Assembly (NCBI GenBank): GCA_937920545.1
Contig: CAKZUG010000102.1
Coordinates: forward strand, 1 to 36,319
Length of the DNA: 36,319 bases
Direction of reading: 5' to 3'
DNA from: an uncultured Saccharophagus sp.
GTDB lineage: Bacteria; Pseudomonadota; Gammaproteobacteria; Pseudomonadales; Cellvibrionaceae
The notes under the pieces were generated by a model. That model searched no databases. It saw nothing but the letters and a program-made list of their open reading frames with translations, and was not told the DNA's origin. This document shows, one piece after another, positions 17,722-31,346 of this stretch (position 1 is the first letter of the stretch; every line of letters begins with the position of its first letter). A program made the translations under genes and the position numbers.

Positions 17722-19587
17722 CTAGTAGGCTTTTACTTGTATAAATTGGCAGTTGTTATTGGCGTTAAAGGTCACGGTGTTGCCTGTAAAGCCTGTGCCT
17801 TTTATAAAGTTTCTATTAACGTCAACGGTGTTGCTGCCGTCGGTTGCGTTGCCTCTAAAGTCGCAGTTGCGGTGGGTGTCGCTGTCTTTAATAGAAACGG
17901 TGCCGTTATCCAGTGCTTGGCTAAAGGTAACGCAGTTGCTTTGGCTAAGGTCTAGCTCGGCACTTGTTCTAAAGTCAACTAACTGACAGCTCGCGCTAAC
18001 AGGTACAACGGGTTCAGTTGGTGTATCTGGTGTTGGTTCTTGTTCAGGTTCTTGTTCAGGTTCTGTTGGTGCAGTTGGAGCTACCGGTGTTGTAGGTGTT
18101 GCATCAACGGGTGTTTCCGGTTGTGTCGGTTGCGTTGGCATTTCTGGTGTGGTTTCGCTACCCATAATACCGCCACGGTCGGCTGGTTGGTTGTTGGTGC
18201 AGGCGTCGCGGCTAATACATGATTCGCCATTTTCAAAACCCCAACCACTTTGGTCGTTTTCACAGAGTGTGGTTCTGTCTCCGTACCAGTTACAGTATGC
18301 GCCGCTGTGGGTGTTAATAGGCGTTTCTTCGGGTGTTGGGTCTTGCTCGGGGGTGTCTACAGGTTGTGGTGTTTCTTCTGGAGTTTCTTCTGGTGTAATA
18401 GGAGCGGGCTGCGCTGGAGTAGGTGTGGGCACTGTTGATGGTTCACTGCCGCAACCGCTGGTTAGTTCGTCAAAGCACGCGTAAGGCCCAAGGTTGGGCT
18501 GTTCAATGGCTGGGTCAAGTGTATAGCTAATGTTACGTACCGCATAGCTACGTGTAACTAGCTCGGTGCCGCCGTCTAAACGTACATTGTTAGATATATT
18601 GAGGGTTTCTTCCTGCGCTCTAAACGTCCCCGAATCGCGGTTTAAGCGTATTTCATTATCGTAAATATTTGAGCGGCGGTGTTCTCTGAAGGTATAAATA
18701 GCATGGTCTACATCAGTATCGCCGCCCCAGTCCATATAATTGTTACGTACGATAACGTCGGTACCTTTTAAATCGATAAAGCTATCGGCTTGGGGCGAGC
18801 CTGCGGTGCCTATAATACCGTCAGCTAATAGGTGGTTGTATTCAATAACGGTACCCGTGGTGCCCGCTTTTACGTCGATGCTTTCTGCGGTAATACCCGG
18901 GCCAATTTTACATCCTGCAATGCGGTTGTAGTCGCTAAAGTCTTGCTTGTCGGCTTCATTACCTTTATTTGTACCTATGTATACGCCCTCAGCTGAGCCT
19001 TCATAACCTACACGTTTACCTGTGCTATGAATGTAGCAGTTTTTAATGGTGTTGTATGAACTGCTATTGCGAAAGTGGACGGCTTCTTGGCCTGTGTTGT
19101 ACACCTCGACATTGTCCATGACGTTATGGTTGGCACCTTCTAACATGATGCCTTTTTGCGTGCCGGAAAATTTTAAATTTTTAATAATCCAGTGGTCACC
19201 TTCGAGTAAAAATACATACCCAAGGTTAATATTGTCGCCTAGTAGAGTTTGTTTGTTGTTTTTATTGGCCGATGTCAGTGTAATGGGTGCATTACGGGTG
19301 CCGTTTTTATTGCTATAAAAATAGGCACGGCCAAAACCGTCGTCATAAAAGCGACGAGTCTCACCGCTTGTGGCGCGGCTACCGATATAATTTCCTGGGT
19401 GTAGAGTAATTATATCGCCAGGGCTGGCTGTATTAAGGGCTGTTTGTAGCTGGGTTGTGTCGTATACATTTACTGTGTTTGCGGTTGCTAAACCACTTGC
19501 CGTAGTGAAAACAATAATCGTTGTGGTTTTTTTTGTGATTATTGATATTAGGGTTGAAAGTGCTGTTGGCGTGATTTTTTTAATCAT
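17722..19587 (-). CDS. Secreted multimodular right-handed beta-helix protein (pectate-lyase-like fold) with CBM10-like module and a C-terminal Cys-containing domain
   Basis: Signal-peptide-like N-terminus; beta-helix repeats (WIIKNLKFSG, NVMDNVEVYNTG, NTIKNCYIHSTG, VIEYNHLLADG, IVRNNYMDWGG); CBM10-like YCNWYGDRTTLCENDQSGWGFENGESCISRDAC; P/T/E linkers. Confidence 0.8.
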   Translation of the reverse strand: MIKKITPTALSTLISIITKKTTTIIVFTTASGLATANTVNVYDTTQLQTALNTASPGDIITLHPGNYIGSRATSGETRRFYDDGFGRAYFYSNKNGTRNAPITLTSANKNNKQTLLGDNINLGYVFLLEGDHWIIKNLKFSGTQKGIMLEGANHNVMDNVEVYNTGQEAVHFRNSSSYNTIKNCYIHSTGKRVGYEGSAEGVYIGTNKGNEADKQDFSDYNRIAGCKIGPGITAESIDVKAGTTGTVIEYNHLLADGIIGTAGSPQADSFIDLKGTDVIVRNNYMDWGGDTDVDHAIYTFREHRRSNIYDNEIRLNRDSGTFRAQEETLNISNNVRLDGGTELVTRSYAVRNISYTLDPAIEQPNLGPYACFDELTSGCGSEPSTVPTPTPAQPAPITPEETPEETPQPVDTPEQDPTPEETPINTHSGAYCNWYGDRTTLCENDQSGWGFENGESCISRDACTNNQPADRGGIMGSETTPEMPTQPTQPETPVDATPTTPVAPTAPTEPEQEPEQEPTPDTPTEPVVPVSASCQLVDFRTSAELDLSQSNCVTFSQALDNGTVSIKDSDTHRNCDFRGNATDGSNTVDVNRNFIKGTGFTGNTVTFNANNNCQFIQVKAY

Positions 19588-23901: not shown

Positions 23902-24351
23902 ATGAGTCATGCATTACATATTCAAACTGAGCGAGAAAAGAAAGTGATGGCGGGTTTGGGCTATGCTGGCGTCATTCCGTTTGTTCTTTGTGTATTAGCC
24001 GCTTTTTTTGACGTTAGTTTTTTAGATTTAAAACCTAGCATTGTTTTTTGCACTTACTCCGTTGTTATTGTAACGTTCTTAAGCGGGACTATTTGGGGTA
24101 AAAGCTTGTATTGCGATGATAATAAATTGTTTTATTTGTTATCCAGTAATATTTTTACGCTAATAGCGTGGGTATGTTTACTGACGGTGCATATTTTGGT
24201 TGCACTGCTTGTTTTGTCGCTTTCTTTTGTTGCCTTATTATTTATTGAGACAAGGCAGCCTAATGTCATGGGTAAATATTATTTGATTATGCGTATATCG
24301 CTCACATCTATTGTGGTCTTTTTACATGTTCTTATGGCGTTTGCGCTTTAA
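23902..24351 (+). CDS. DUF3429-family membrane protein
   Basis: 149 aa with several TM segments; GLGYAGVIPFVLCVLAAFF, GTIWG resembling DUF3429. Confidence 0.7.
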   Translation: MSHALHIQTEREKKVMAGLGYAGVIPFVLCVLAAFFDVSFLDLKPSIVFCTYSVVIVTFLSGTIWGKSLYCDDNKLFYLLSSNIFTLIAWVCLLTVHILVALLVLSLSFVALLFIETRQPNVMGKYYLIMRISLTSIVVFLHVLMAFAL

Positions 24352-24437
24352 GCCTAATGTGAATTTTGATTGCACTTCTCTTCTTATGTATAGTCCAATG
24401 TTAAAGGCTTTTAGCCTAAAAGCATAAGAGGTGTTTT

Positions 24438-25031
24438 TTGATAGATTCGTTGGAACAATTGGCTCAAAATCCCTGGTGGGTTTTTTTTGGTGTGCTGACA
24501 TTTGCTTGGCTTTGGGAGGATGGCGCTCTTATATCTGGGGCGTTGCTTGCTGCTGATGGGGCGATTCATCCCGTATGGGGGGCGCTGGCAGTATTGTTGG
24601 GTATATGTTCTGGCGATGCCGGGTTATATTATATGGGTGTGCTGGCAAGGCGTGTACGTGCTTTAAGGGCGCGTTTATACAAAAAGAAGAACTTCCGTCA
24701 AATGCGCTATAAATTTTCTGAAAAAACCTTTTCTAATATTCTTCTTATTCGTTTTATACCGGGTTTGCGTACTATTGGCTTTAGTTTTTGTGGCTTTGTA
24801 GGCGTAGGATTCATTCGTTTTATGATTGCTATGACATTGGCTGGTGTGGTGTGGGTGAGCTTACTTTATATGCTTATTTATTTTTTAGGCTCTAGTGACT
24901 GGTTCGTGGATTCATATTGGAAATGGTCCTTTGCTTTAGTGGCGGTAGCGCTCTTATTTATTAATAACCGACCTCGTACAGCGTCAACTCTGGCCTCAGT
25001 ACGTGCTCCAACAAAAATACCTGTAGAGTAA
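24438..25031 (+). CDS. DedA-family membrane protein
   Basis: TTG start after AAGAGGTG; WLWEDGALISGALLAADG, GDAGLYYMG, RFIPGLRTIGFSFCGFVGVGFIRF typical of DedA. Confidence 0.82.
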   Translation: MIDSLEQLAQNPWWVFFGVLTFAWLWEDGALISGALLAADGAIHPVWGALAVLLGICSGDAGLYYMGVLARRVRALRARLYKKKNFRQMRYKFSEKTFSNILLIRFIPGLRTIGFSFCGFVGVGFIRFMIAMTLAGVVWVSLLYMLIYFLGSSDWFVDSYWKWSFALVAVALLFINNRPRTASTLASVRAPTKIPVE

Positions 25032-25102
25032 CCAGATTCACTAAACTTTTCGTGCTGTTAGTGTTCTCTACTTCTCCTTTTTTATTTGAATAAGTTTTTT
25101 AT

Positions 25103-26224
25103 ATGTCGTTATCGCTAATCAAGCATGGCCCCAATGCAGGGCTACCGCATTTAAATGAGCAAAAGCGCTCTGCTTCTTTTTATGAGTTTTGGCCTGTTTG
25201 GGTGCTATACATCCCGGTTGTTTTTTACTGGTTATGGCTAGCTATACGTTACCGTGGTTTTGGCTTACCTTTAGCGGCTAACCCGAATGTGTTTTTGGCA
25301 GGTATGCTAGGCGAATCTAAAATTGATTTGTTGGCGTCTGCGGGGGAAACGGCACAGGCGCATATTTTACCGTTTGTTTCTTTTGTTGTTGAGCCTGATG
25401 GCGTGCCTGGCAATGCTAATACGATAAAAGCTCAAGCGTTACTTGATCGGGCTGGACTTACTTATCCTTTAGTGGCGAAGCCTGATGAGGGCTGTCGTGG
25501 TGCAGGCGTGCAAATTGTGGCATCCGAGTCTGAGTTGGAGCGGTATGTTAGGGCGTTTCCGGTAGGTGAAAAGCTTATGTTACAGCGTTTAAGCCAGCAT
25601 AAAGCCGAGGCCGGTGTCTTTTATGTGCGTATGCCTAATGAAAACCAAGGTAAGGTGGTGTCCATAACATTAAAGTACCGCGCGACCGTAACGGGAGACG
25701 GTAAGCGAACAGTTGCCGAGCTAGTTGAAGCCGATAGGCGTGCCTGTAAATTGCGCGATTTATATCGTGAGCGTTTGGGTGATACATGGCGCAGCGTGCC
25801 ACAACGCGGTGAAGAAGTACCGTTGGTTTTTGCGGGTAGCCATTGTCGTGGTGCTATTTTTAAAGATGGGTGTGAGTATATTACGCAAGCACTAAGCGAT
25901 AAAATTGATGCCCTTATGCAAGATTTTCCGGCGTTTTATTATGGTAGGCTCGATATTAAATTTGATAATTTAAGTGATTTTATGGCGGGGCGTACTTTTG
26001 ATGTTATTGAGCTTAATGGCGCAAGCAGTGAGCAAACTCATATCTGGGACAGTAAAACGCCTGTCTTGGTCGTAGTGAAAACATTGTTATTGCAATACAA
26101 AACGCTGTTCATTATTGGCGCTGACTTACGCGATAAAGGTGCGGTTGTACCTTCGTTATTGACGCTTATAAAAGTATGGTGGCGTGATATAACGTCTAAA
26201 ACGACGTATCCTCACACACACTAG
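25103..26224 (+). CDS. Membrane-anchored ATP-grasp ligase-like protein
   Basis: N-terminal TM VWVLYIPVVFYWLWLAI; ATP-grasp-like PLVAKPDEGCRGAGVQIV, MLQRLSQHKAEAGVFYVRMP, YGRLDIKFDNL, FDVIELNGASSE. Confidence 0.75.
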   Translation: MSLSLIKHGPNAGLPHLNEQKRSASFYEFWPVWVLYIPVVFYWLWLAIRYRGFGLPLAANPNVFLAGMLGESKIDLLASAGETAQAHILPFVSFVVEPDGVPGNANTIKAQALLDRAGLTYPLVAKPDEGCRGAGVQIVASESELERYVRAFPVGEKLMLQRLSQHKAEAGVFYVRMPNENQGKVVSITLKYRATVTGDGKRTVAELVEADRRACKLRDLYRERLGDTWRSVPQRGEEVPLVFAGSHCRGAIFKDGCEYITQALSDKIDALMQDFPAFYYGRLDIKFDNLSDFMAGRTFDVIELNGASSEQTHIWDSKTPVLVVVKTLLLQYKTLFIIGADLRDKGAVVPSLLTLIKVWWRDITSKTTYPHTH

Positions 26225-26387
26225 AGTGTACCGTGACTTAAAATTGGCATCTCCCCAGTTTTAGCCGCGGCTAAATGAAAGGGCACTTTTGGGTGAAGGC
26301 CATGTCTGATGTGTTTTAACCTGCTACTATCTATTTTTGGTTATTTACTCTGTAGATAGCCCACCTTAACTTAAGTGATTAATTGTA

Positions 26388-26981
26388 ATGATGACAACAT
26401 CGTCAATGTTGACAGAAGCTTCTGCTACGCCTGCTGCTCATTTGCAACCCATTATAGTGGGTGCGCTTGAGTCTTTGAGTCAAGTTCATAAGCTGCTAAG
26501 TGATATATCCCAAGAGCAGTACGTGCATATATGTACGCCTCATATGCAAAGCCCAATGGGAAGTCATGTTAGGCATGTGCTAGATATGTTTTATGCGTTT
26601 AAATTGGGTGTAATCAATGATGAAGTTATTGATTATGATTTAAGGCGGCGTGGTGCGGCCATTGAGACGTCGCTTGTTGCGGCATTGGTTGATATTACTC
26701 ATACCATTGAGTGGATCGATAGTATGTTTTCGTCTGCGGGTACGCTAAGTACGGCCCTAGAGCAGGTTGTTAGTGTTAAAACCGAGGTGTGTTTGTCGTG
26801 TACGGTTTCTGTTCATGTTGAATCAAATCTGGGGCGTGAATTAATATTTGTGGCTAGCCATGCTGTGCATCATTTTGCGCTGCTGGCCACAATCGCTAAA
26901 TTACAGGGTGTTTGTCTTGACGACAACTTCGGTGTAGCGCCCGCCACACGTACTTTTTTGCGCCAAGAACGGGTCGAATAA
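26388..26981 (+). CDS. DinB-like (YfiT/DinB superfamily) protein
   Basis: GSHVRHVLDMFYAF and SHAVHHFALLATIAKLQG, His pattern of DinB metal-binding four-helix bundles; 1-nt stop/start overlap with next gene. Confidence 0.72.
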   Translation: MMTTSSMLTEASATPAAHLQPIIVGALESLSQVHKLLSDISQEQYVHICTPHMQSPMGSHVRHVLDMFYAFKLGVINDEVIDYDLRRRGAAIETSLVAALVDITHTIEWIDSMFSSAGTLSTALEQVVSVKTEVCLSCTVSVHVESNLGRELIFVASHAVHHFALLATIAKLQGVCLDDNFGVAPATRTFLRQERVE

Positions 26982-27724
26982 TGTGTACTTTAAGCTGGCT
27001 ATATACTCCAGCAGGTTGCGAGATATTTTTTAACCGTGATGAGCAGCGCGCCCGTGCTGATGCTTTGCCGTTAACGGTTAAAAATGGTGCTGCGTACCCT
27101 GTTGACCCTCAAGGCGGGGGCACATGGATAGGTGCTAATGCTAGTGGTTTAGCTTTTGCATTGCTTAATTTTTATCAGGGTTGTTTGCCTAACGGTAAAG
27201 ATGGCAAAGTATCTAAGCTCATTTCTCGTGGGGCGATTATTACTCGGCTGGTAAAGTGCGAGAGCCTTTGCGATGTTAAAATGACGTTTGAAGTGTTTGA
27301 TCTGACTCAATTTGCGCCTTTTTCGCTATGCGTGTTTACGCCTATTTCGCAAGTATTATGGCAGTGGACAGGGAGTAAACTGCATATTGACCCAACTATT
27401 GTCAGCCCAATGACGTCGTCGTCGGTGCATTTTGACGAAGTGCATGCTTCACGGTTGCATGAGTATGCACGGCTGCCTGCTATTACTCGCCAATCTCTTT
27501 TTGAGTACCATACGCGACATCAGCCCGAAAAAAGTTATAAAAGTGTCTGTATGCATCGTAGGGACGCTAAATCAGTTAGTTTTACGCACATTAATTTGCA
27601 GCCAAATCAGGCTGTTATGCGTTACCACAACCATTCTCCATGCACGCTAAACAGTTATGATACGTTTTTAGCGCTTAAACCCGAAGTGTTAGAGCGCTGC
27701 TTGGTCGATCACGAGCAAGTGTAG
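26981..27724 (+). CDS. NRDE-family (TANGO2-like) protein
   Basis: MCTLSWLYTPAGCEIFFNRDEQRARADALP, PVDPQGGGTWIGANASGLAFALLN; Cys2 as in NRDE proteins. Confidence 0.85.
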   Translation: MCTLSWLYTPAGCEIFFNRDEQRARADALPLTVKNGAAYPVDPQGGGTWIGANASGLAFALLNFYQGCLPNGKDGKVSKLISRGAIITRLVKCESLCDVKMTFEVFDLTQFAPFSLCVFTPISQVLWQWTGSKLHIDPTIVSPMTSSSVHFDEVHASRLHEYARLPAITRQSLFEYHTRHQPEKSYKSVCMHRRDAKSVSFTHINLQPNQAVMRYHNHSPCTLNSYDTFLALKPEVLERCLVDHEQV

Positions 27725-27729
27725 TTTTT

Positions 27730-28566
27730 CTAGATGGTTACAATTGCGCCCTTTGCTATGCCTTCATACGCCTTAACGGTAAAGTTATCTTGAGGGTGTT
27801 GGTGTTTGAGGGTGCTGGCAATGTGAGATGCAATAAATTCGACAGTGGTGTCTGTGTCGATAATATCGACACAGCTTGCAGGTAGGCTTAGCGTGAATTC
27901 ACCTTGGTCGGCGCGGTAGGCAAAATCAATTTGGCTACTTGATTGCTGAAGGATGTCGCTACGCGTTGCAATATAAATATCCGCCCAATTGGATGCCTGC
28001 TTTTGCATATCCGTTACCGATAGCTCACCATTGCGCCATATTTCAATTTTAGATCTGTGGCCGTGAGCGATGCGCTGACAATTACCTTTGTGCTTTTTTA
28101 GTCCGTGACTGTAGTGGTAAAAGGGGGTGGCGATCGCTTCTGGTTCAAAACTTAACGTAATGTTGGCCACACCCTCGCCAAAGTGATCGCGTAGAGCGCG
28201 CTTGCAGTGTTCTGCAATGCTATGCGGGGTGATGTCTGTTGCATCAACAAGTGTTATGGCTTGGTGGGGGCTACTAATTGCAATATGCTTGTTATCGTAA
28301 CGCCATTCTAGGCTTGTGTTTAACGTGTTTTGACTCAGATTTTGTGTGCAATTTGATGTTTTGGGTACAAGTAGGCAATGGTCAATATACGTGTCTAGCC
28401 ATGTGCGCAGTGTTTTTTTAACAATACCAAAATCGCATACCATACCGTTACTATCCAGCTCGCCATCAAGCACAATACTGGCAAGCCATGTTTCGCCAAT
28501 AAGGCCACGAGTTGGGTGGAAATAACTGAAATCGACATTGGTTAAGTTGTTAACAAATAATTGCAT
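27730..28566 (-). CDS. Tandem 6-pyruvoyltetrahydropterin synthase / QueD-like protein
   Basis: N-half GMVCDFGIVKKTLRTWLDTYIDHCLLV; C-half FYHYSHGLKKHKGNCQRIAHGHRSKIEI (Zn/Cys and HGH motif). Confidence 0.75.
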   Translation of the reverse strand: MQLFVNNLTNVDFSYFHPTRGLIGETWLASIVLDGELDSNGMVCDFGIVKKTLRTWLDTYIDHCLLVPKTSNCTQNLSQNTLNTSLEWRYDNKHIAISSPHQAITLVDATDITPHSIAEHCKRALRDHFGEGVANITLSFEPEAIATPFYHYSHGLKKHKGNCQRIAHGHRSKIEIWRNGELSVTDMQKQASNWADIYIATRSDILQQSSSQIDFAYRADQGEFTLSLPASCVDIIDTDTTVEFIASHIASTLKHQHPQDNFTVKAYEGIAKGAIVTI

Positions 28567-28677
28567 AGCTTGCGGGTATCTTTAGATCTGTTTTATGGGG
28601 GAGTAATTGTAGCGTATTCGGCTTTAATTGCGCAGCGAATTTTATGGGTAGTGCGAGTTTAAGCTATAGCAAAGTAA

Positions 28678-28700
28678 AGCGATGCGGTGATTGCATCGCT
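28678..28700 (-). terminator. Hairpin downstream of DUF3135-like gene
   Basis: AGCGATGC-GGTGATT-GCATCGCT, perfect 8-bp stem; on minus strand followed by TTTACTTT. Confidence 0.45.
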
Positions 28701-28750
28701 AGTGGCATCTAGACCGCTATTGTATTTGAGGTATTTTTTGAATGTGTGTG

Positions 28751-29107
28751 TTAACACGCTTTAATTTCAGGCGCGGATGGAAAGTTTAATACGACTGCGT
28801 TCACGATGGTTTGTCTGGGGGGGGGCGTGCTTTGTTTTTTGTCCAGGTTTAATCCTGCTAGAGCATCATTAAGTTCATGTAATGATTCATGCATCTTTTT
28901 AGAGATCGCAATGCATCTGCTCAATGGCGTTTTATGGCGCCTACGCTCACCGTCTATTTGAAATTGTAAACCGCGTAAACGTTGTTGTTGTTCGGTTGGG
29001 GCGTTGTCGATAAGTTTCTCTATTTCACTTTTCCGCCAGGCTTCTAATTGTGCCGGGTTGTTTTGTGCAAGATCTTTAAGTTCATCAAATGATGGCCAGT
29101 TAGACAT
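28751..29107 (-). CDS. DUF3135-family protein
   Basis: PSFDELKDLAQNNPAQLEAWRKSEIEKLIDNAP..RLRGLQFQIDGERRRHKTPLSRCIAISKKMHESLHEL. Confidence 0.78.
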   Translation of the reverse strand: MSNWPSFDELKDLAQNNPAQLEAWRKSEIEKLIDNAPTEQQQRLRGLQFQIDGERRRHKTPLSRCIAISKKMHESLHELNDALAGLNLDKKQSTPPPRQTIVNAVVLNFPSAPEIKAC

Positions 29108-29409
29108 GGTGTGCCTCCAAAATAGACATAAATAAAATGTAAGAGTATGTATCTTTGGTCGCTTAGATTGGCGCGATAATCATCTCTCGTTGATTAAAAA
29201 TGATACTATCAGAGTTGTGCATGTTATGTGAGTAAAGAATGCTAGATCGGTAAGTTATATGTCGAAATTTGCAAAGAGGTTCTCAAGACATATATTTTGT
29301 CTTATTTCTTTTGTTATTCTGAGTGTCTTGTCATCCAGTTGTCCCTATAAATGCCGTATCTTGTTTGTGTATTTACCGTTTTTACAGTGTATAAATAAGG
29401 GGTGTGGAG

Positions 29410-29973
29410 ATGCATGTTCAGCGTCGTGCAGCGGTTATTGTCTTAATTAAAAATATCAATGGGCAGGATTGTGTACTGTTAACTAAGCGTGCCGTGTCTT
29501 TGCGTTCGCATTCGGGTGAAGTTGCACTGCCAGGTGGTAAGTATGACGATACTGACATCAATCTGCGTGCAACGGCATTACGCGAGGCGCATGAAGAGGT
29601 AAATGCTAATCCCTGCGATGTGGATATATTCAAGGCGCTAGCGCCTAGTTATTCACGGGCGAATATTTACGTTAAGCCTTTTGTGGCAAGGCTAAATAAA
29701 GATGAGCACATTAAGGCAAACCCTAGTGAAGTGGCCGATATTTTTTGGGTGCCTATTGCTTTCTTCTTGGAGGATCAGCGCCTGCGTACCGATACAGCAT
29801 GTATTAAAGGGCGTGACTTTTGGGCACCCGCATATGCCTTTGGTCAGCATGTTATATGGGGGTTAACGGCGCGAATTATTGTCGATATGTTAAATAAGTG
29901 CTACAGAGCGAATATTGTTAAACAGCAAAAGCGGCCTGTTGAAATGAGTCGGGCGCTGATGCTGGCGAGCTAG
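29410..29973 (+). CDS. NUDIX hydrolase (CoA-pyrophosphatase-like)
   Basis: RSHSGEVALPGGKYDDTDINLRATALREAHEEVN, slightly divergent Nudix box; start 29404 GTG or 29410 ATG. Confidence 0.85.
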   Translation: MHVQRRAAVIVLIKNINGQDCVLLTKRAVSLRSHSGEVALPGGKYDDTDINLRATALREAHEEVNANPCDVDIFKALAPSYSRANIYVKPFVARLNKDEHIKANPSEVADIFWVPIAFFLEDQRLRTDTACIKGRDFWAPAYAFGQHVIWGLTARIIVDMLNKCYRANIVKQQKRPVEMSRALMLAS

Positions 29974-30074
29974 CCGTTAATGATTATTTTACTTGCACTG
30001 AGAGGGGTTTTTTGCATGTCGTCCTTATCTGCATGGGCGATGGGGTGGAGTCTTTACCCGCTTAGGTTTATTCG

Positions 30075-31346
30075 TTAATGCATCGTTACTTTTACTTTTT
30101 CTATCCGCGTTTCTGATATGTCTGTAAGCTCAAAGCGGTAGCCTGCAATTTCAAAACTAACAATAGCGTCTGGTATGTTTTCTAAGTGCTCTAATATAAT
30201 GCCGTTAATCGTTTTAGGGCCGTCAATGGGTAAATCCCAGTCTAGGTGTTTATTTACCTCTCTTATCGACGTTGACCCATCAATTTTGTACCACTTGTTG
30301 CTCAACGGCACAATATCTTCTTCTTCTTTATCGTCGGCTGCATCTGTTGAGAAGTCGCCTACAATTTCTTCTAGTAAGTCAACTAGGGTGGCAATACCCA
30401 CCACTTCGCCGTATTCATTCACCGCAATCGCTGTGCGCCGCTTTTCTTTTTGAAAATTCAGAAGTTGCGTGGAGAGCGAGGTGGACTCGGGTACAAAATA
30501 AGGGGTGCTTAGGTTATCGCGTATAGCTTCATGTGTGATGGTGTCGTCACTGCCGTTAATAAATCGTGCAGCGTTGCGAAGATGTAAAATGCCAATGACA
30601 TTGTTAATGTCGCCTTCAAAAACAGGTAGTCGAGTGTACTCGGTTGTGCGGATGAAGTGCATGATGTTTTTTATGTCATGTGTCATATCGATGCCGACTA
30701 CGTCGTTACGCGGCACCATAATGTCCTCAACTGTCGCTTTAGCCAAATCCAGCACATTAAGCAGCATGCCTTGGTGTTGGTCGGGTATCAGTTCGCCAGC
30801 TTCGTTAACGACTGTGCGCAATTCTTCTGGGTGCAGGTTGTCTGATAAATTACTGTTGTTGAGGTCTATGCCCAACACTTTTGCCAGCGCCTTGGAAATT
30901 ATATTCACTAAAAATACAAACGGAAAAAGTACAATTAATAAAAAGTGCAGGGCAAAGCTAGCAGGAAAAGCGATTTTTTCTGGGTAAAGCGCTGCAATCG
31001 ACTTGGGAGTGACTTCGGCAAAAATAAGAATAATAAAGGTTAATAAAATAGGCAGTAATGCAATAACCAATGCTTCGCTTAAAAAGCGTTCAGCAATAAC
31101 GGTCGCGACCATGGTAAGTAAAATATTAACAAGGTTGTTTCCAATTAAAATAACGCCTATGAGCTTGTCGGGCTTGGCAAGCAGGCTGGATGCTTTAATT
31201 GCTGCGCGGTGCTCTTGATTCACCATATGCCGCAAGCGATATTTGTTAAGTGAAAGCATGCCTGTTTCTGAGCTAGAGAAAAAAGCAGAGCTAAAGATAA
31301 GGGCAATAAACAGACCGACTAGTAACTCGGTAGAGACAGCGTCCAA
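30075..31346 (-). CDS. CNNM (DUF21)/CBS/CorC_HlyC transporter-associated protein (CorB/YfjD-like)
   Basis: FSSAFFSSSETGMLSLNKYRLRHM, FAEVTPKSIA, ATVEDIMVPRNDVVGID, AVNEYGEVVGIATLVDLLEEIVGD. Confidence 0.93.
   Translation of the reverse strand: MDAVSTELLVGLFIALIFSSAFFSSSETGMLSLNKYRLRHMVNQEHRAAIKASSLLAKPDKLIGVILIGNNLVNILLTMVATVIAERFLSEALVIALLPILLTFIILIFAEVTPKSIAALYPEKIAFPASFALHFLLIVLFPFVFLVNIISKALAKVLGIDLNNSNLSDNLHPEELRTVVNEAGELIPDQHQGMLLNVLDLAKATVEDIMVPRNDVVGIDMTHDIKNIMHFIRTTEYTRLPVFEGDINNVIGILHLRNAARFINGSDDTITHEAIRDNLSTPYFVPESTSLSTQLLNFQKEKRRTAIAVNEYGEVVGIATLVDLLEEIVGDFSTDAADDKEEEDIVPLSNKWYKIDGSTSIREVNKHLDWDLPIDGPKTINGIILEHLENIPDAIVSFEIAGYRFELTDISETRIEKVKVTMH

Follow-up and report, generated by a model that had tools for sequence, protein, structure and literature searches.

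A DedA, ATP-grasp, DinB and NRDE gene set in an uncultured Saccharophagus: probable OlsF-less version of a gammaproteobacterial ornithine-lipid accessory locus

The window analysed here is a 36,319-nucleotide stretch of DNA from an uncultured Saccharophagus sp. (assembly GCA_937920545.1, contig CAKZUG010000102.1, positions 1 to 36,319). It carries genes for a DUF3429 protein, a DedA membrane protein, an ATP-grasp ligase, a DinB-fold protein and an NRDE/TANGO2-family protein, which face a convergent gene for a tandem PTPS/QueD-like protein (Table 1). A first-pass annotation had described this arrangement from the sequence alone, and an open reading frame (ORF) check confirmed the positions of the five consecutive plus-strand genes. 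Also borne out were the TAATG in which base 26981 is common to the DinB stop (TAA) and the NRDE start (ATG), and the convergent PTPS gene end, 5 bp from the NRDE stop. The family names stood as well: DUF3429, DedA/VTT, TANGO2 (NRDE) and PTPS each exceed their Pfam cut-offs, while ATP-grasp and DinB fall below theirs by sequence and are right by predicted fold. A link of the DedA, ATP-grasp, DinB and NRDE proteins to the synthesis of aminolipids (ornithine lipids) is well supported by the comparisons reported here. We further interpret positions 24438-27724, at a probability of slightly under 0.6, as an aminolipid-tailoring module: an ornithine-lipid accessory locus, conserved in Gammaproteobacteria, that here lacks OlsF. 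Since no Ols gene lies in the window locus, we term it an accessory locus and not an OlsF locus.

Conservation within the order was examined in 146 genomes. Relatives of the DinB protein occur in 29 of these, and the 29 neighbourhoods were clustered; a scan of contigs with the single DinB protein as query gave no match. An NRDE gene adjoins DinB in 19 of the 29 loci, often overlapping it, and the neighbourhoods also hold ATP-grasp (17, of which 3 are a shorter divergent form), DedA (9), YHS (13) and DoxX/MauE-like (12) genes. An acyltransferase of OlsF/OlsB type is present in 21/29 neighbourhoods: as full-length OlsF (580-637 amino acids) in 16, as an OlsB-like protein with a separate OlsA-like protein in 4, and as the GNAT half alone in 1. 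At four loci (L039, L040, L042 and L053) DinB-NRDE or DinB is thus accompanied by OlsB plus OlsA instead of OlsF. A domain fusion was also found (G005, P0001), in which a 550-amino-acid ORF joins a TANGO2 region (residues 1-90) to Acyltransf_2, the OlsF-type O-acyltransferase domain (267-517), and is followed by the GNAT half; this is one example, from a one-contig genome. One genome of the same family as the window organism (G119) keeps ATP-grasp, OlsF and DinB together.

A scan with an ATP-grasp alignment recovered more than 530 relatives, of which the best 80 loci were kept with flanks of up to 10 kb. These contain OlsF in 75 cases, DinB in 60, DedA in 58, NRDE in 53, YHS in 53 and DoxX in 28. 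The OlsF-bearing loci span Vibrio, Marinomonas, Endozoicomonas and others. DedA lies immediately 5' of ATP-grasp in 58 of the 80 loci with a median overlap of about 10 bp, NRDE adjoins DinB in 53 of the 60 DinB-bearing loci (median spacing +2 bp), and the median spacing between ATP-grasp and OlsF is -8 bp. The usual order in Vibrio, Enterovibrio and Marinomonas is DedA, ATP-grasp, DinB, NRDE, YHS, (DoxX), OlsF, on one strand and with short gaps. Elsewhere the order is shuffled and the content kept: the run reads ATP-grasp, OlsF, DinB, NRDE in Agarivorans and some Marinomonas; in Endozoicomonas DinB is convergent with OlsF; ATP-grasp-OlsF alone, DinB-NRDE-OlsF alone and divergent layouts are found; and several marine metagenome-assembled genomes (MAGs) retain just the ATP-grasp-OlsF pair, with an 8-bp overlap and housekeeping genes alongside. 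One locus from a different order of the class (L240) groups DinB, NRDE, ATP-grasp, OlsB and OlsA. When sampling was widened to 274 genomes of the class, the ATP-grasp proved patchy, a strong match being present in only a few. Other genomes cluster homologues of the window genes with OlsF or OlsBA, and the proposed functional neighbourhood of DedA, ATP-grasp, DinB and NRDE across Gammaproteobacteria holds, since the gene-neighbourhood comparison shows conservation far beyond close relatives. That the content survives both rearrangement and replacement of OlsF by OlsBA argues for a shared pathway over inherited synteny. ATP-grasp with OlsF and DinB-NRDE with an Ols gene each occur without the other, suggesting that there are probably two sub-modules.

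The same partners co-occur across the 146 genomes. High-scoring NRDE proteins are found in 20, all with DinB (Fisher p 5e-18); ATP-grasp of the window family in 15, all with DinB (p 7e-13); and locus-type OlsF in 13/15 ATP-grasp genomes versus 7/131 others (p 6e-12), p-values that ignore relatedness and are descriptive. All 15 ATP-grasp genomes carry some full-length OlsF. Two control subfamilies behave differently: a sister ATP-grasp subfamily (L159-L166) adjoins Ols genes in 0/8 loci, and generic NRDE genes (L224-L233) adjoin DinB, OlsF or ATP-grasp in 0/10, whereas high-scoring NRDE adjoins DinB in 19/20. Chance adjacency is ruled against by these comparisons, and the DinB-NRDE adjacency exceeds chance.

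No Pfam ATP-grasp model scores above its cut-off for the window ATP-grasp protein; the best is Dala_Dala_lig_C (11.9 bits, cut-off 24). Its predicted model has a pLDDT (predicted local distance difference test) of 91 and matches cyanophycin synthetase, GshAB and D-Ala-D-Ala ligase in the PDB (Foldseek probability 1.00). Four catalytic-type residues, K126, D284, E303 and N305, are invariant among 55-57 aligned relatives, so that the window protein has both the fold and the Lys/Asp/Glu/Asn set. It shares this fold and the catalytic motif residues with cyanophycin synthetase and D-Ala-D-Ala ligase, but identity to the PDB matches is 10-21%, every Pfam ATP-grasp cut-off is missed, and there is an extra, single hydrophobic N-terminal helix (residues 32-50). 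The best 19-residue hydropathy is 1.71 for the window protein and averages 1.36 over the family, and it is plausible, as the first-pass label of a membrane ATP-grasp had implied, that the enzyme is held at the membrane. Since the best fold matches of the model are amino-acid and peptide amide ligases, we infer that an amide-forming role is favoured. The DedA protein, which resembles lipid transporters, matches no equivalog such as UptA (13.5 bits against a cut-off of 250).

The control ATP-grasp subfamily (157-190 bits), a second and unlinked one of the same type, is carried by several genomes of the order and has a comparable EFW motif at its N-terminus. Separately, loci L031-L033, L170, L172, L247, L249 and L252 are variants with a different ATP-grasp pair and an MFS transporter. 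In L031-L033 these are joined by YHS, DoxX and DinB, and in two of the three by NRDE, with no OlsF nearby. These variants may represent a sister pathway with another product.

The window DinB protein (DinB_2, 16.4 bits; cut-off 24.8) is, as judged from its predicted model (pLDDT 93), a divergent member of the DinB/YfiT family: the best PDB matches all belong to that family (Foldseek probability 1.00, E about 1e-3). His60, His63, His158, His161 and His162, putative metal ligands, are invariant in 57 sequences. In the NRDE protein M1, C2, N18, R19, D20 and E21 are invariant (18 sequences), and the family profile matches human TANGO2 structures 8sv7 and 9bwa (E 3e-6). Cys2, the NRDE motif and a PF05742 score above cut-off are common to the window and human proteins, but the profile aligns only the N-terminal half; the C-terminal half is divergent and lies outside the alignment to the catalytic Asn157/Lys166. 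Human TANGO2 binds acyl-CoA through NRDE (PMC11867700), and its structure is that of a Cys-Ntn hydrolase for which fatty-acyl substrates were proposed (PMC13044924). It is on these grounds that we propose that the window NRDE protein may handle acyl groups.

Table 1. Features of the window around the conserved gene set
Feature	Position	Strand	Basis or remark
DUF3429 gene	23902-24351	+	Pfam 74.5 bits, cut-off 39.1; neighbour outside the conserved set
DedA / VTT-domain membrane protein, 197 aa, TTG start	24438-25031	+	PF09335 53 bits, cut-off 33.9
Predicted ATP-grasp carboxylate-amine ligase, 373 aa, N-terminal hydrophobic helix	25103-26224	+	predicted fold, invariant residues
DinB/YfiT-fold putative metalloenzyme, 197 aa	26388-26981	+	predicted fold, invariant His
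TAATG stop/start overlap of DinB and NRDE	26979-26983	+	read in sequence
NRDE/TANGO2-family protein, 247 aa, putative Cys-Ntn hydrolase fold	26981-27724	+	PF05742 31.4 bits, cut-off 22.6
Tandem PTPS/QueD-like gene, convergent neighbour outside the conserved set	27730-28566	-	PF01242 56.5 bits, cut-off 22.4, two stretches

The outer genes of the window cluster do not belong to the conserved set. PTPS, which had been counted as a member, is present in 0/28 loci of the order and in 1/80 named loci, that of the nearest relative, Alteromonadaceae bacterium Bs31; its best score against the QueD equivalog TIGR03367 is 51.2 bits, short of the 89.25 needed. DUF3429 is found in 0/28 and beside ATP-grasp in 0/80. 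Of the two membrane partners suggested earlier, DedA therefore stays in the conserved core (58/80) and DUF3429 does not (0/80). The nearest syntenic locus, in Bs31 (L064), has the same gene order as the window, including PTPS, DUF3135, NUDIX and CorC; the latter four genes (window 27730-31346) form an independent conserved block beside the cluster, and DUF3135 occurs in 1/80 named loci. Within the cluster, 163 bp separate ATP-grasp from DinB, and a promoter and terminator scan of the window gave sites no commoner than in shuffled sequence. Further away, 17722-19587 encodes a large secreted protein whose N-terminus looks like a beta-helix and whose long linkers are rich in Pro/Thr/Glu; judged by eye, it is possibly a polysaccharide lyase with carbohydrate-binding modules.

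These distributions bear on the pathway that was first proposed, in which the four proteins together with PTPS and DUF3429 would make a peptidyl, thiol or pterin cofactor. Pathways of that type do use ATP-grasp, DinB and PTPS folds (EgtB and OvoA, for example, contain a DinB-fold domain), and the combination of DinB, Ntn and ligase resembles the EgtB/EgtC/EgtA ergothioneine pathway. However, PTPS and DUF3429 are not conserved neighbours, and the recurring partner is an Ols acyltransferase (75/80 loci). An ergothioneine/ovothiol-type sulfoxide synthase pathway was rejected because the 197-amino-acid DinB protein consists of the DinB fold only, without the FGE-sulfatase domain. A cofactor of this kind is thus unsupported as the product, and we regard the model as very improbable. 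With an aminolipid (ornithine-lipid) synthase as the constant partner, a modified membrane aminolipid is the likeliest product.

In the window genome, which is 84% complete, OlsF is encoded away from the locus, on contig C46 (751 bits; cut-off 620). Three YHS proteins are likewise encoded elsewhere, and no DoxX homologue was found, a weak test given the incomplete assembly. Bs31 resembles it in having OlsF unlinked, and has a DoxX gene between ATP-grasp and DinB. In a tree of OlsF proteins the locus-linked and the unlinked canonical groups are set apart by a long branch, whose canonical side has 99/100 support (two aberrant rows left out). The window lineage appears to have lost a local OlsF, and the unlinked one may serve in its place. 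A stand-alone OlsF N-half, a GlsA-like acyltransferase of 285 amino acids, was also noted on contig C152 of the same genome (L062:8077-8934), directly 3' of a glycosyl phosphorylase-like gene in a run of sugar-phosphate/glycerate-type genes.

A counterpart of the set has been studied in Vibrio cholerae. A published primer whose end lies 51 bp into VCA0649 falls, with 3/18 mismatches, at exactly the same depth in the DinB gene of V. mimicus (L137), and the VCA0646 start primer maps to the 3' end of the V. mimicus YHS gene (L137:12824-12896), where, in another frame, it reads the C-terminus (WEKDRAHHI vs WDKERVHHI); the 2-kb upstream primer and the VC0489 primers gave no useful mapping. VCA0649 is therefore DinB, VCA0648 NRDE, VCA0647 YHS and VCA0646 OlsF. 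As its start primer lies within the YHS coding end, the annotated start of VCA0646 may be too far upstream. By synteny, VCA0650 (annotated as a D-Ala-D-Ala ligase) is assigned as the ATP-grasp protein and VCA0651 as DedA, so that the vca0646-0649 operon with these two genes upstream corresponds to the set seen in relatives. In V. mimicus the OlsF frame (L137:13301-15101) is split into two overlapping ORFs of 132 and 505 amino acids.

Compared with the described OlsF synthase loci (VCA0646 and VC0489; NF052615), the linked acyltransferase of the relatives is a two-domain OlsF homologue, scoring 433 bits in V. anguillarum. Locus-type OlsF proteins as a group score about 355-435 bits, below the NF052615 cut-off of 620, and form a separate group. 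ATP-grasp, DedA, DinB and NRDE partners are not mentioned in the OlsF literature searched. Glycine, glutamine, lysine and sulfur aminolipid pathways (PMC11631085) use two steps, N- then O-acylation, by OlsB/OlsA- or OlsF-type enzymes; none has an ATP-grasp ligase or DedA, and ATP-grasp appears there only in a reference title. Searches for these families combined, or for ATP-grasp, DedA or TANGO2 with ornithine lipid, found no paper describing the set, which extends a pathway of known kind in a way so far undescribed.

Two of the V. cholerae reports suggest another role, as a quorum-controlled stress or cell-death/defence module in which an altered membrane lipid is a weapon or a trigger of self-lysis. 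According to PMC11573629, vca0646-0649 are activated by HapR, and overexpression of vca0646 with vca0647 kills cells independently of the type VI secretion system; in PMC7600106, VCA0646 to VCA0651 all drop in an iurV mutant, by about 2-3 log2 units, and cpxP, copper and redox genes drop with them. Yet in the former report deletion of vca0646-0649 left cell death unchanged, and the killing may be toxicity of an overproduced lipid. The bare ATP-grasp-OlsF pair beside housekeeping genes in marine MAGs also argues for a membrane role, and we consider a cell-death function improbable. The vca0646-0649 genes were treated as genes of unknown function in PMC11573629, and in the portions available neither report identifies these as lipid genes. 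The window lacks counterparts of the two genes, 0646 and 0647, that cause the phenotype.

A closer competitor is that the locus serves aminolipid homeostasis: the ATP-grasp enzyme would make an amino-acid or dipeptide substrate for OlsF, NRDE and DinB would degrade lyso-ornithine lipid, and no further modified lipid would arise. The minimal, overlapping ATP-grasp-OlsF pairs are equally compatible with substrate supply and with tailoring, cleavage of amide bonds is general to Ntn hydrolases (PMC13044924), and VCA0646 is reported to give plain ornithine lipid both in E. coli and in V. cholerae kept at low salinity (PMC12186959). But VCA0646 alone suffices in E. coli, so that plain ornithine lipid needs no ligase, and these genes are missing from most genomes of the order that have OlsF. 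The hydrophobic helix of the ATP-grasp protein and its DedA neighbour would also point to a lipid substrate. We judge the homeostasis account to be unlikely, though a good deal less so than a cell-death module.

Several observations weigh against assigning the window genes to aminolipid tailoring. OlsF, OlsB plus OlsA, YHS and DoxX are absent from the window locus itself, and the OlsF of this organism falls in a different, unlinked group; its partnership with the locus here is therefore presumed. The 80 named loci are the best matches to one query, mostly from Vibrionaceae and Marinomonas, and their counts are not independent. Within the order, 8 of the 29 DinB genomes lack full-length OlsF (some of these have OlsBA or split genes), and G050 and G084 carry the ATP-grasp2/MFS variant in place of it. 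Thin-layer chromatography of VCA0646 products gave ordinary ornithine lipid without modified species in the portion of PMC12186959 available, and overexpression of OlsF and YHS is enough for cell death, VCA0648 (NRDE) and VCA0649 (DinB) being dispensable (PMC11573629), so that DinB and NRDE may be peripheral.

On the aminolipid-tailoring reading, OlsF, here encoded on contig C46, would produce an aminolipid through two acylations of ornithine or a similar amino acid. We infer the chemistry of the four window proteins, including formation by ATP-grasp of an amide on the aminolipid or its precursor. Held at the membrane by its N-terminal helix, the enzyme would activate a carboxylate as an acyl phosphate and form an amide on the headgroup: an amine could cap the free alpha-carboxylate, or an amino acid could be attached at the delta-amine. 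DedA may move or position the lipid across the inner membrane. The NRDE protein, as a TANGO2-like Cys-Ntn protein, may bind or cleave fatty-acyl amide or thioester intermediates, and the DinB-fold metalloprotein may act on the same substrate; the two together would edit, recycle or detoxify a lyso-lipid or acyl donor. YHS and DoxX proteins would join the module in other species.

The locus may even make a new class of amide-extended (aminoacyl or amine-capped) ornithine lipids through ATP-grasp, with its TANGO2-like subfamily acting as dedicated Cys-Ntn amidases or acyl carriers, a tentative suggestion that we would not expect to hold in full. If true, the ancestral biochemistry of human TANGO2 would be the processing of acyl-amide lipids. 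Clustering and two independent kinds of evidence, the OlsF/OlsBA partner swap and the domain fusion, here tie four orphan families (subfamilies of DedA, DinB and bacterial TANGO2, and a divergent ATP-grasp) to membrane aminolipid synthesis. This also connects three V. cholerae reports that had dealt with these genes separately, one on an ornithine-lipid synthase, one on quorum-controlled cell death and one on the iurV regulon. The result gives a concrete lead on the function of orphan DedA, ATP-grasp, DinB and NRDE proteins, and offers a simple bacterial setting for testing what the TANGO2 family, which includes a human disease protein, does biochemically, a disputed point.

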